From Halorubellus sp. JP-L1 (lineage in GTDB: Archaea > Halobacteriota > Halobacteria > Halobacteriales > Natrialbaceae), in assembly GCF_011440375.1 (NCBI RefSeq), contig NZ_JAAOIR010000001.1, positions 1,488,001 to 1,552,000 of the forward strand: a stretch of DNA of 64,000 nt, written 5' to 3'. The notes beneath the pieces were generated by a model that was given only the letters and a program-made list of their open reading frames with translations, was not told the origin of the DNA and did no database searches. A program made the translations under genes and the position numbers. Within the stretch, counting starts at the first letter, position 1. The number at the start of each line of letters is the position of its first letter. Positions 29,578 through 33,075 of the stretch are shown one piece after another.

Positions 29578-30234
29578 TCAGTACCCGAGTTGGTCGCGGA
29601 CGAGGACGACGGTCGTGCGGCCGTCCTCCATCTCCTTCCGGAAGACGAGTTGCTTCGCGATGGCGGACCCGACGCCGTAGGCTTCCTGCGCGCGCTCGTT
29701 CTCGAGGGGGTACGCGACGGATTCGAGACGGTCGAAGGCGTCGTCGAGCGTCGGGACGACCTTGTTCGTCCCGGAGACGATGACGACGTTCCCGGCGGCG
29801 AAGGGGTACGCGCCGATGCGGCTCCCGGACATGTCGGCGGCGACGAGTTCGCCGGTCGACGCGATGGCGTTGATGCCGCCGAGGAAGTAGTCCGCGGTCT
29901 GGGCGTCGCGGCGCGCGGCCTGGCGTTCTTCGTCGTCGTCGATGCTCCAGACCTGGTCGGGGAGGCTCTCCCAGTCGTGGTCGCCGGAGCCGAGGTAGTC
30001 CTCGAACCCGATCTCCTCGAGCGTCGTCGAGTGGCCGTTCATCACGGACGCGCCTGCGGGGATCTGGGACTGGACGGCGTCGAGCGCTTCGTCGGCGGTG
30101 TCGACGACGACGACCTCGAACCCGTTCGCTTCGAGGTTCGCGACGGTCTCCTCGAGCGTCTCGTCGTCGGGGTGGTCGTCGAGTCCTGTGTCGATTTCTG
30201 TGTCGTCTACGTAATCCGCTTTCTGTTGGGACAT
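29578..30234 (-). CDS. LUD (LutC/YkgG-type) domain protein
   Basis: 218 aa. Its LUD domain spans about residues 25-215: ANLEANGFEVVVVDTADEAL, SVMNGHSTTLEEIGF, DYFLGGINAIASTGELVAAD and GNVVIVSGTNKVV, the core found in lactate-utilisation proteins LutB/LutC. It lacks the ferredoxin part of LutB. No lutA or lutB neighbour is present, so a role in lactate oxidation is uncertain. The ATG at 30234 has a CGTTAAGTACGG stretch about 40 nt upstream as promoter candidate. Confidence 0.85.
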   Translation of the reverse strand: MSQQKADYVDDTEIDTGLDDHPDDETLEETVANLEANGFEVVVVDTADEALDAVQSQIPAGASVMNGHSTTLEEIGFEDYLGSGDHDWESLPDQVWSIDDDEERQAARRDAQTADYFLGGINAIASTGELVAADMSGSRIGAYPFAAGNVVIVSGTNKVVPTLDDAFDRLESVAYPLENERAQEAYGVGSAIAKQLVFRKEMEDGRTTVVLVRDQLGY

Positions 30235-30361: not shown

Positions 30362-30450
30362 CCACCCCGCACGGTCCTTTAAGTCGTTCTGGTCGCAATG
30401 GTTCATGGTGAGGAGGTCGACGCCGACGTGGTCGGCGTCAGACGCGTTTC
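30362..30450 (+). repeat. Promoter-hairpin cassette, copy 1
   Basis: An 88-nt conserved block: CACCCCGCACGG, TATA box TTTAAGT (30378-30384), GTCGCAATGG, the SD-like GAGGAGGT (30410-30417), a perfect 9-bp hairpin GACGCCGAC-GTG-GTCGGCGTC (30419-30439), then a short T-run. Copies 2 and 3 keep exact internal spacing (TATA to ATG 20 nt, TATA to GTG 30 nt, ATG to GAGGAGGT 12 nt). Possible products are a ~45-nt RNA, or a leaderless peptide from GTG at 30408 (27 codons, MRRSTPTWSASDAF...). No known RNA family recognised. The rest of 30235-30512 shows no gene. Confidence 0.6.
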
Positions 30451-30512
30451 TGTGGCTGGTTTGCTCGGGTAGCTACGGCGTCTACCGCTGACGGAGAACG
30501 GCGCGTCGCTCG

Positions 30513-31382
30513 CTAGCCGTCCGCGGCGACGTACTCGATTGGGAACGTGCGGTCGTCGGCGGCGCCGTTCCACCCGTAGCGGAGGTCGTGGTCGCCGTCG
30601 TCGAGTTGGTCGTCGGGCACGCGAAAGCCGCTGATGCCACCGGTGTAGCTCGTGCGTTCGGTCGCGCCGGCGTCGACGAGGATCGAGAATCGCTTCGCGG
30701 GAATCGAGGCGACGCGTGGCCCGTACCGATTCAGGCCGGCGACGAACCGCCCGGGCACGGTGCCGTCGTTCGTCACGGCGACGTCGAACGTCGGGGACTC
30801 CCCCTGGGCGAGGGTGTCCGGCGCGTCGATCGACACCGAGAACGCGGGTGCGTCCGCACGGAGGCGCTCCCGGAGGCCGGCGCGCAGTCGGTGTTCGCCG
30901 CCCGGCCACGTGACGGCCGCGTCGCTCGTCGAGTCGAACCCGCTCGCGGGGAGTTCGAACAGCAGGAGGCCGCCCAGGTCCGACTCGAACGCGCTGTCGG
31001 ACTGGTAGACGCGCCAGAGTCGGGACACCGTCCGCCCGTCGTCCGGCCCGTACTCGGTGCCGTCGACCCGCAGGGCGACGTCGCGTCGGTCCACGCGGCC
31101 CTCGGAGACGAATGCGTTCGCGAGCAGGTACCGGCCGTCGCCGCCGGTCGTGCTCAGGTAGTCGGTCTCGAGGAACACCAGCGCCTGCTGGAGGGTCGCC
31201 TCGGTGACGTCGAGGGTCGCGCTCGCCGTCGTCGTCGCGTTCGTCGTCGTGGCGGTCGTCGCTTCGGTGCTCGCGGTCGTGGTCGTCGTCGTTCCCGTCG
31301 CGTCGTCGCCGTCGTCGATGCCGAGGCAGCCGGCGGTCCCGAGGGCGAGGCCGGCGGTCGCGAGGAGGCGGCGGCGCTGCAT
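30513..31382 (-). CDS. Tat-exported lipoprotein, unknown function
   Basis: 289 aa. N-terminus MQRRRLLATAGLALGTAGCL: twin arginines and a lipobox TAGC, so Tat export and lipid anchoring at the cell surface. A Thr-rich linker (about 25-60), probably glycosylated, precedes a globular domain. That domain is beta-rich and includes VDGTEYGPDDGRTVSRLWRV and a late DVAVTNDGTVPGRF segment resembling an immunoglobulin-like/CARDB strand pair. No enzyme motif recognised. It lies between cassette copies 1 and 2, which are on the other strand. The ATG at 31382 is chosen because it begins the RR signal. Confidence 0.8.
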   Translation of the reverse strand: MQRRRLLATAGLALGTAGCLGIDDGDDATGTTTTTTASTEATTATTTNATTTASATLDVTEATLQQALVFLETDYLSTTGGDGRYLLANAFVSEGRVDRRDVALRVDGTEYGPDDGRTVSRLWRVYQSDSAFESDLGGLLLFELPASGFDSTSDAAVTWPGGEHRLRAGLRERLRADAPAFSVSIDAPDTLAQGESPTFDVAVTNDGTVPGRFVAGLNRYGPRVASIPAKRFSILVDAGATERTSYTGGISGFRVPDDQLDDGDHDLRYGWNGAADDRTFPIEYVAADG

Positions 31383-31471
31383 ACGAGGGACGCGCTCGCC
31401 TCGCGGCATGAGTCTTCTGCAGACTGGTACGCGCGTCGTGACCGTCGACTAGTCGCGGTCAGGAATCGATC

Positions 31472-31567
31472 CACCCCGAATCCCGCAGTTCTTTAAGTCG
31501 GTCTGGTCGCAATGGATCATAGTGAGGAGGTTGACGCCGGGGCGGTCGGCGTCGCACGCGCTTTTCG
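31472..31567 (+). repeat. Promoter-hairpin cassette, copy 2
   Basis: TTTAAGT at 31492-31498, GAGGAGGT at 31524-31531, hairpin GACGCCG...CGGCGTC at 31533-31553 (7 bp), then CTTTTCG (T-run 31562-31565). Spacing equals copies 1 and 3. An ATG-started frame at 31512 gives 24 codons like copy 1. A GTG-started frame at 31522 gives 53 codons and ends in a TAG that overlaps the GTG of copy 3 (TAGTG). Confidence 0.6.
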
Positions 31568-31636
31568 CTGGTGTTCAATTCGGTAGTCGCGTTACAGTTT
31601 CGTCTCGTTCTGGACCGACCAGCCCTCTCCGTGACA

Positions 31637-31729
31637 GCACCCCGCACGGTTCTTTAAGTCGTTCTGGTCGCAATGGGTCGTAGTGAGGAGGTTGACGCCG
31701 GGGCGGTCGGCGTCGGACGCGTTTTTTGA
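31637..31729 (+). repeat. Promoter-hairpin cassette, copy 3
   Basis: CACCCCGCACGGTTC, TTTAAGT (31653-31659), GAGGAGGT (31685-31692), hairpin 31694-31714, then six T's (31722-31727). Upstream and downstream flanks differ from copy 1 outside the block, so the unit has sharp borders. The ATG frame (31673) has 18 codons; the GTG frame at 31683 stays open to 31958 but becomes Arg-rich and runs antisense into the RaSEA gene. No other gene is seen in 31383-31836. Confidence 0.6.
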
Positions 31730-31836: not shown

Positions 31837-32931
31837 TCAGTCGACGAGCGGGGCGTTGTACTCGGTCTCGCGTTCGAGGACCGTCTCCCAGGTCGCTTCG
31901 CACTCGCAGGACACTTGCTCGAACACCGACGGGTCCTGGCGGAGGTCGAAGTCCTTGATCGCGGTCTGGACGTTGTCGTCGCACTCGCCGCAGTTGTGCG
32001 GGCCGCGGTCGCTCCCGTGCCCGACGGGGTCGCTGACGACGATGACGTCCTCGTCGGCGGTGGATTCGAGGACGTCTGCGACCGACCAGAGCCACGGCGG
32101 CCGATAGCCCCCGCGGAAGTAGAGTTCGTCGACCATCGTGTACCGCTGGACGTTGCAGGGGTTCATCGAGACGGTGTGACAGCCCTCGACGCTCGCGCAC
32201 TTGCGGACGCTCGCCTTCATGTCTTCGAGCGCCTCGGGTTCCGTGAGGAACGGCGGCTTCATGAGGAGGTACGCCTTCACGCCCGCACCCGCCTCCTTCG
32301 CGGCCATCGCGGCGTCCTCGAAGTCCTCGAAGTCGAAGTACTTGTTCACGCAGTCGTGACGCACGCGGTCGGTCGCGGTCTCCAATCCGACGGCGACGTC
32401 GACGTCCAGGCCGTGCTCGGTGAAGTCCCCGACCTTCTCGGCGTCCACGAAGTCCGGGAGGCTCTCGACGACGATGCGCTCGCGGTCCCCGAACGCCTTC
32501 GCGATCGCCTGCCGAGTCTCGGCGCCGACCTCGCGCTCGTCGAGGAAGCTCCCCGACGTGTAGATCTTGATGAGGCCCGCGCGCTCGTCGTCCTCGCCGG
32601 GCTCGCCGAGGTTCTCGCGCTCGTGCTCGAGGCAGGCGTCGATCTGGTCCATGAGCGCGTCGTGCGCGACGCTCCCGCCCTCGACGGACTCGGCGACGTA
32701 CCCGCACATCGTGCAACCGCCGGCGCGCGCCCACCGACACCCGCCCGTGTTGAGGATGATGGTGAGGCTGTCGTAGACGCCACCTGGCGTGTTGTCCTCG
32801 TCGAGCCACACGCGCGTCGGCTCGTGGGGGTCGTACGTCTCGTTCTTCTCCGCGCGGATGGACCGCATCACCTCGTTGTGGGCGTCCATGCCGCGTCCCC
32901 GCTCGTAGACCTCGGGACTCGGTTCGCTCAT
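31837..32931 (-). CDS. Archaeosine biosynthesis radical SAM protein RaSEA
   Basis: 364 aa. Its unusual radical SAM cluster GCRWARAGGCTMCGY has a Cys-x7-Cys-x2-Cys spacing (Cys65, Cys73, Cys76), the mark of this family. Also seen: IKIYTSGSFLD, VESLPDFV, GLETATD, NPCNVQRYTMVDELYFRGGYRPPWLW. RaSEA completes archaeosine at tRNA position 15 by converting the lysine adduct that ArcS forms on preQ0 into the amidine. arcS and tgtA are within 6 kb on the same strand, supporting the assignment. The ATG at 32931 gives MSEPSPEVYERGRG. Confidence 0.92.
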   Translation of the reverse strand: MSEPSPEVYERGRGMDAHNEVMRSIRAEKNETYDPHEPTRVWLDEDNTPGGVYDSLTIILNTGGCRWARAGGCTMCGYVAESVEGGSVAHDALMDQIDACLEHERENLGEPGEDDERAGLIKIYTSGSFLDEREVGAETRQAIAKAFGDRERIVVESLPDFVDAEKVGDFTEHGLDVDVAVGLETATDRVRHDCVNKYFDFEDFEDAAMAAKEAGAGVKAYLLMKPPFLTEPEALEDMKASVRKCASVEGCHTVSMNPCNVQRYTMVDELYFRGGYRPPWLWSVADVLESTADEDVIVVSDPVGHGSDRGPHNCGECDDNVQTAIKDFDLRQDPSVFEQVSCECEATWETVLERETEYNAPLVD

Positions 32932-33075
32932 TACCGGCACCAGGGCGCGCACGCTCAAATCCCCTTCGAGTGCCCCGGCCCGCACGCGAGACGGTGCAGC
33001 GGTCGGCGTCGCCGACGACCGGCCCGAAGCACGTTGGGTGGGTCACTTCCCGTCTCGGCCCCTTCGGTCGGTGTA

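Follow-up and report, generated by a model that had tools for sequence, protein, structure and literature searches.

Three repeat units in a Halorubellus genome

The window, by which we mean the whole 64-kb stretch of Halorubellus sp. JP-L1 DNA that was analysed, carries on its plus strand three copies of one repeat, which align in register without gaps as a 102-nt family of 74-85% identity. A BLAST search of copy 3 against the whole genome recovered copy 2 with E = 7e-29 and copy 1 with E = 2e-27, far beyond chance, and a relaxed pattern of the element found no site in the window beyond these three. The copies and their neighbouring genes are as follows, with E values for the core promoters from the model R2 described below.

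29578..30234, minus strand: gene with a LUD domain (PF02589, E 5e-37), a conserved neighbour that flanks the array in both species of Halorubellus and lies outside the element
30378..30415, plus strand: core promoter of copy 1, with TTTAAGT at 30378-30384 and the conserved TCTGGTCGCAATGG at 30388-30401 (R2 E 1.1e-13)
30408..30455, plus strand: predicted short RNA of copy 1, with a 9-bp hairpin (30419-30427/30431-30439) and a weak T-rich end; fold z -2.8; 3' end putative
30513..31409, minus strand: lipoprotein-like gene between copies 1 and 2, with lipobox LGTAGC; its protein begins MQRRRLLATAGLALGTAGCLG
31492..31529, plus strand: core promoter of copy 2, with TTTAAGT at 31492-31498 and TCTGGTCGCAATGG at 31502-31515 (R2 E 2.0e-13)
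31522..31569, plus strand: predicted short RNA of copy 2, with a hairpin (31533-31539/31547-31553); fold z -1.4; 3' end putative
31653..31690, plus strand: core promoter of copy 3, with TTTAAGT at 31653-31659 and TCTGGTCGCAATGG at 31663-31676 (R2 E 1.3e-14)
31683..31727, plus strand: predicted short RNA of copy 3, with a hairpin (31694-31700/31708-31714) and a T-run (31722-31727); fold z -1.3; 3' end putative
31837..32985, minus strand: gene for the archaeosine radical SAM enzyme RaSEA (TIGR01210, E 9e-134), conserved beside the array on its other side and likewise outside the element

The original prediction described three plus-strand blocks with identical internal spacing, and this description is accurate: in every copy a GTG begins exactly 30 nt downstream of the T that opens TTTAAGT (30408, 31522 and 31683). 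From the spacing to the TATA box, transcription of copy 1 would be expected to start at about 30408. The hairpin lengths given for the copies, a perfect 9 bp in copy 1 and 7 bp in copies 2 and 3, are also right. Two details that had been ascribed to all three copies hold for some of them: the T-run is clean in copy 3 only, copy 1 having TTTCT and copy 2 CTTTTC, and CACCCCGCACGG occurs in copy 1 (at 30363) and copy 3, while copy 2 reads CACCCCGAATCCCGCAG.

The placement of the blocks around a surface lipoprotein gene, part of the same description, proved incidental. The protein of this gene has no match in Pfam or NCBIfam. The sister species Halorubellus salinus has five copies of the element, of which three are orthologues of the window array and stand adjacent to one another between the LUD-domain and RaSEA genes. 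No lipoprotein gene lies among them, and the gene is therefore not part of the element. The fourth H. salinus copy adjoins PspAB, as does a copy on contig C5 of our own genome, and the fifth lies upstream of the gene for an RNA polymerase subunit, epsilon, to which we return below. Our own genome has six copies in total, the three beyond the window (two on C5, one on C4) having been missed earlier; one C5 copy was found by BLAST of copy 3, and the second C5 copy and the C4 copy by a covariance model built from ten copies. The sequence-only model returns exactly these six, with a clean gap below them (E 1.7e-7, next 0.1).

A core promoter element conserved across Halobacteriales

Model searches extend the family well beyond this genome. 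Model R1, representing window-type copies with the hairpin, matches 68 of 392 genomes of the order Halobacteriales. Model R2 uses sequence only and was built from 38 diverse copies from several families, whose alignment, A2, is free of gaps; at E <= 1e-3 it finds the element in 173 of the 392 genomes, with one to nine copies in each. Copies in other haloarchaea, whose absence would have told against the original prediction, are plentiful. Positions invariant across all 38 aligned copies are TTTAAGT...TCT.G....AA.GG......GT, and the conserved core is a gap-free 38 nt, TTTAAGT-N3-TCT[G/C]G[T/C][C/G][A/G][C/T]AA...GG, that begins at the TATA box and ends a little beyond the expected start. The spacing between the TATA box and TCT[GC]G....AA is fixed across the family.

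The limits of conservation were examined in 342 distinct copies, drawn from fetched loci and weighted toward Natrialbaceae. Conservation begins at the bases flanking the TATA box, is near maximal across TTTAAGT-N3-TCT[G/C]G[T/C][C/G][A/G][C/T]AA, and extends across the expected start site to about position +37, counted from the first T, beyond which it is at background. As judged from these alignments, the pattern is that of a core promoter and not of an RNA or a protein. One reading put forward originally, a duplicated promoter with a 5' fragment of a lost gene, thus keeps its first half; the lost gene is wrong, because the 342 copies share no conserved downstream sequence.

Copies tend to stand in head-to-tail arrays, typically at 110-140 bp: of 173 pairs of neighbours on one strand, 102 are separated by less than 200 bp, mostly by 100-150 bp. 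One Natrialbaceae genome has an unusually regular array of five consecutive elements at a spacing of 118-121 bp, far from epsilon (L256, 2186-2663). In named GTDB genomes, a scan for the exact pattern turned up 104 stretches; those listed are all haloarchaeal (Natrialbaceae genera, Halorubellus, Haloarchaeobius, Halapricum, Halosimplex, Haladaptatus, Halopiger and others) except one, from a Lachnospiraceae metagenome-assembled genome. At three Haloarchaeobius loci (L245-L247), elements unlinked to epsilon flank a gene for a Tat-signal protein (MTDEHTTGLTRRRILGG...), near genes for ribosomal protein S10 and elongation factors; the lipoprotein gene flanked by window copies may be compared with it.

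Downstream of the promoter, the features of the window copies do not extend to the family. Another of the original readings was an RNA that exposes a Shine-Dalgarno-like (anti-16S) motif and is ended by a terminator hairpin. Its promoter half stands; neither the motif nor an order-wide hairpin does. The motif, GAGGAGGT, is replaced by GAGGCAGT, GAGGCGGT or GAGGAAGT within the genus and by GAGCCTTC, AAGCGGAG or GAAGGGC outside it, and the region that comprises GTG and GAGGAGGT reads GTAAGCGGAG, GTGAGCCTTC, ACGAAGGGC, ACGACGGGA and others elsewhere; a conserved anti-16S motif was rejected accordingly. The hairpin, which follows GTGAGG, is found in nearly all Halorubellus copies, with 95% of cells paired across ten copies and modest fold scores; one of its pairs shows double changes, and the covariation score was equalled in 19 of 500 shuffles. 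On this comparison of copies it is a genus-level feature. A general hairpin RNA family was rejected, 200 copies folding like their dinucleotide shuffles (mean z +0.21); in 28-nt windows across the family the mean folding excess is at most -0.44 kcal/mol. Rfam covariance models at gathering score gave no match in the window array and only a tRNA at 12 array loci. The elements probably give rise to short non-coding transcripts.

The epsilon gene beside the arrays

Clustering of open reading frames around 111 loci brought out one protein, encoded at 52 of them and, in nearly all maps, on the same strand as the adjoining array. Its plasmid homologues are annotated as DNA-directed RNA polymerase subunit epsilon. 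At 30 epsilon loci from 30 genomes, a same-strand element lies no more than 450 nt upstream of the gene in 26, and an element of the strict pattern lies within about 1.1 kb in 29; the thirtieth locus is that of our own genome, where the element is a TTCAAGT variant detected by R2. In one family (f17), elements also aim at the epsilon gene from the opposite side. The gene has a separate TATA-like sequence of its own, downstream of the last element, and because this promoter lacks the element, there is no sign of simple autoregulation by way of a shared promoter type.

The epsilon subunit is present in Halobacterium salinarum and in a subset of other haloarchaea, and for Haloferax volcanii no rpoeps is listed (PMC8305020). 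It was described in 1983 as a component enabling transcription of native DNA (Madon & Zillig 1983, as cited in PMC8305020), and polymerase containing it transcribes native templates efficiently, its biological relevance being called "enigmatic" (PMC8305020).

Many Natrialbaceae arrays (L111, 5081-6124; L133, L148, L149, L190 and others) contain within them a gene for a nucleotidyltransferase of the RlaP type, an RNA-repair family (PF10127), with a gene for an MptA-type GTP cyclohydrolase divergent upstream. The inserted RlaP gene accounts for a spacing of about 1.05 kb between copies. The nucleotidyltransferase was considered as a partner of the element and rejected, its presence in the array being mainly a feature of Natrialbaceae.

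A search of the 392 genomes with an epsilon alignment found a full-length gene in 180 and distant relatives only in 14. Element and full-length epsilon occur together in 172 genomes, the element without epsilon in one, epsilon without the element in eight, and neither in 211 (Fisher P 1.8e-100, computed without correction for shared ancestry). The single exception among the 173 genomes with the element is an 87% complete draft in 210 contigs. Seven of the eight epsilon-only genomes show a weaker element at relaxed thresholds or by eye, the weakest of them with E 0.13 at a site that adjoins its epsilon gene. Contrasts are also seen within genera: one genus (g11) has both in two genomes and neither in three others, and a second (g42) has both in two and neither in one. 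When filters were relaxed for 27 genomes that lack full-length epsilon, the best match to the element had only E 0.019.

This co-occurrence is partly trivial, because the arrays are physically linked to the epsilon gene; independent support comes only from unlinked copies, from loci of epsilon paralogues and from plasmid loci. Of 126 copies located in 59 genomes, 40 are unlinked, being either on a different contig from epsilon or separated from it by more than 12 kb. These 40 are spread over 25 genomes, each of which carries epsilon; the copies in the window are likewise unlinked.

Paralogue loci came to light through chance-level matches, among them the strongest below threshold, in three genomes that lack full-length epsilon (E 0.019 in one; 0.089, twice, in another; 0.63 in the third); each match immediately follows a distant epsilon-like gene that is 29% identical to rpoeps. 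The sequence TTTAAGT..CTTGCGACAATATGCG follows distant epsilon-like genes at nine loci in eight genomes, and at those loci it reads TTTAAGTAYTYCYTGCGACAATATGCG and then continues into a strongly folded RNA. Eight loci (L315, L318, L322-L325, L344, L345) have one element and a folded RNA of about 65 nt directly after the epsilon-like gene, the stem being GUCGUC/GACGGC around CGCC-AUAA-GGCG in some and of other letters in others, apparently a separate family of structured RNAs. A recognisable element is missing at about half of the loci with a distant epsilon-like gene. Our own genome has a second, distant epsilon-like gene (C2:157301-157867) with no recognisable element nearby.

Plasmid epsilon loci lay outside the discovery set. 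An element is found near the epsilon or epsilon-like gene at four of six (two in Halorussus, one each in Halococcus and Halobacterium hubeiense), and two of the six have none that is recognisable. On the H. hubeiense plasmid pSTJ003, an epsilon-like gene of 32% identity (100209-101123) is encoded near a TBP gene, and the element lies about 230 nt upstream of it. At two plasmid loci, L330 (~3352) and L331 (~3402), elements on the minus strand lie downstream of the epsilon genes, and the predicted short RNAs end in a perfect hairpin and U-run, like a terminator. A viral origin of epsilon was rejected, viral contigs having no match to it.

A proposed promoter class for epsilon-containing polymerase

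In archaeal initiation, the DNA at about -20 to -9 is the site of TFIIB-type proteins and of the upstream edge of the transcription bubble. With the TATA box at about -30, the second conserved block of the element falls here. Each copy would be a complete small transcription unit with a special core promoter, in which a TATA box is followed by TCT[G/C]G[T/C][C/G][A/G][C/T]AA between about -20 and -9 and then by a start region that is fixed as well. Polymerase containing epsilon would read or open the element downstream of the TATA box and start short non-coding RNAs of about 40-80 nt from it. Arrays before the epsilon gene could couple the level of epsilon to its own activity, whether by transcription toward its promoter or by titration, and dispersed copies, including those of the window, would be further members of the same promoter class. 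The genome comparisons show the family, its constant promoter layout, its position next to epsilon genes, a near-perfect co-occurrence with epsilon and a presence beside distant paralogues; we infer from them that the transcripts are made, that epsilon recognises the element and that the arrays act in feedback. Taken as a whole, an epsilon-polymerase promoter class for short non-coding RNAs, with the arrays as a feedback or titration loop, is probably the right explanation, though a DNA-binding protein other than epsilon that is distributed in the same way may be what reads the element.

A more specific version would make epsilon a sigma-like, TFIIB-like specificity factor that provides many haloarchaea with a second holoenzyme for short non-coding RNA arrays, with distant paralogues paired with their own versions of the element. 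AlphaFold predicts a helical core for epsilon (pLDDT 81), and in a fold search the top four PDB matches of this model are all Brf2, which is TFIIB-related, with TFIIB lower and none significant (Foldseek E 0.56); over all fold searches the best matches are cyclins, Brf2 and TFIIB at E 0.4-1. Profile comparison with the cyclin repeats of TFIIB by hhalign was likewise not significant (E 0.48 and 0.053), and homology of epsilon to TFB at the sequence level was rejected after Pfam, NCBIfam, PDB sequence and hhalign searches gave no support. Epsilon may, on the modelled structure, be a helical protein with a TFIIB-like fold. We hold the specificity-factor version tentatively, with slightly more doubt than belief.

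The best surviving alternative is that the element is an operator between the TATA box and the start site for some other regulator, which would control the epsilon locus and scattered small transcripts, epsilon being only a regulated neighbour; in that case the system would more fairly be described as a regulator and its operator. Archaeal repressor sites are indeed often found between TATA box and start, and the usual neighbour of the element is the epsilon gene. The array, however, does not overlap the promoter of that gene, no other gene is found at the locus in all families (genes for RlaP, MptA and TrmB occur at part of the loci only), and distant epsilon paralogues in other families have the element too. 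We regard an operator as unlikely.

A second alternative takes the units as a multicopy small RNA family that acts by base pairing through a shared 5' end, the promoter being kept for expression, which needs epsilon. Copies within a genus do share their first 6-12 nt (GUGAGGAGG in Halorubellus; CGAAGGGCUUUUCGCGG and ACGACGGGA in Natrialbaceae), the units linked to paralogues have a clearly structured RNA, and some units end in a hairpin and U-run. The shared 5' end changes between genera, however, and the body of the RNA has no family-wide conservation of sequence or folding energy, so that we give base pairing as the common function a small probability only, below that of an operator. Such RNAs are compatible with an epsilon promoter class.

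That the copies are functionless mobile or decaying repeats, whether MITE-like or promoter fragments of a lost gene, is very improbable: they are multiple, scattered and tandemly expanded, as such repeats might be, but constraint extends exactly from TATA box to start site across the order, copies are syntenic between species, orientation toward epsilon is fixed, and presence is tied to epsilon. Inverted repeats near the copies are the internal hairpins and simple GC matches, which led us to reject a MITE or IS end; viral contigs have no match to the element, and a plasmid origin of the window block was also rejected, with one short Streptomyces match only. Leaderless GTG micro-ORFs (MRRLTPGRSAS...), the remaining original reading, are favoured by the GTG that each window copy has where transcription should start. 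They are effectively excluded by the sixth copy of our own genome, on C4, whose frame meets TAG as its fourth codon (GTG AGG AAG TAG), and, in other families, by GTA or ACG at the GTG position and the lack of any conserved peptide.

Returning to the epsilon promoter class, we found no description of the element in searchable papers, whose coverage leaves out most subscription journals, and none of a promoter element, regulon or small RNA for epsilon in the same papers. We know of no archaeal polymerase subunit with its own promoter class. Since the element is almost confined to genomes with epsilon, it provides a defined template and a short list of candidate targets in each genome, and the role of epsilon becomes directly testable. 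Beyond this, the arrays represent a widespread and undescribed class of candidate units of non-coding transcription in haloarchaea.

The nearest known counterpart is rpoeps itself (OE_1279R of Halobacterium salinarum): homologues of the array-adjacent gene are so annotated, and both show the same patchy haloarchaeal distribution (PMC8305020). Head-to-tail sibling units that share a 5' end recall tandem multicopy small RNA families such as LhrC of Listeria and OmrA/B of enterobacteria; in the haloarchaeal element, by contrast, it is the promoter that is conserved and not the RNA, which has no Rfam match. Promoter classes specific to TFB or TBP paralogues likewise pair a variant general factor with a promoter subtype, and the BREd of TFIIB promoters likewise consists of conserved bases directly downstream of the TATA box, at a place where TFIIB is able to contact DNA, a parallel that a TFIIB-like fold of epsilon, which is possible, would deepen. 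The element differs from these in its reach, to about -9, in its much greater specificity and in its co-occurrence with epsilon, and epsilon has no significant sequence similarity to TFB. If our reading is right, the closest functional analogue would be a bacterial alternative sigma factor, which is also a dispensable polymerase factor with its own promoter sequence near the melting point, although there is no homology, the archaeal TATA box is kept, and the targets are short non-coding arrays and not protein genes. Should epsilon indeed read the element, archaea would have a dedicated pair of polymerase subunit and promoter that resembles the sigma factors of bacteria.
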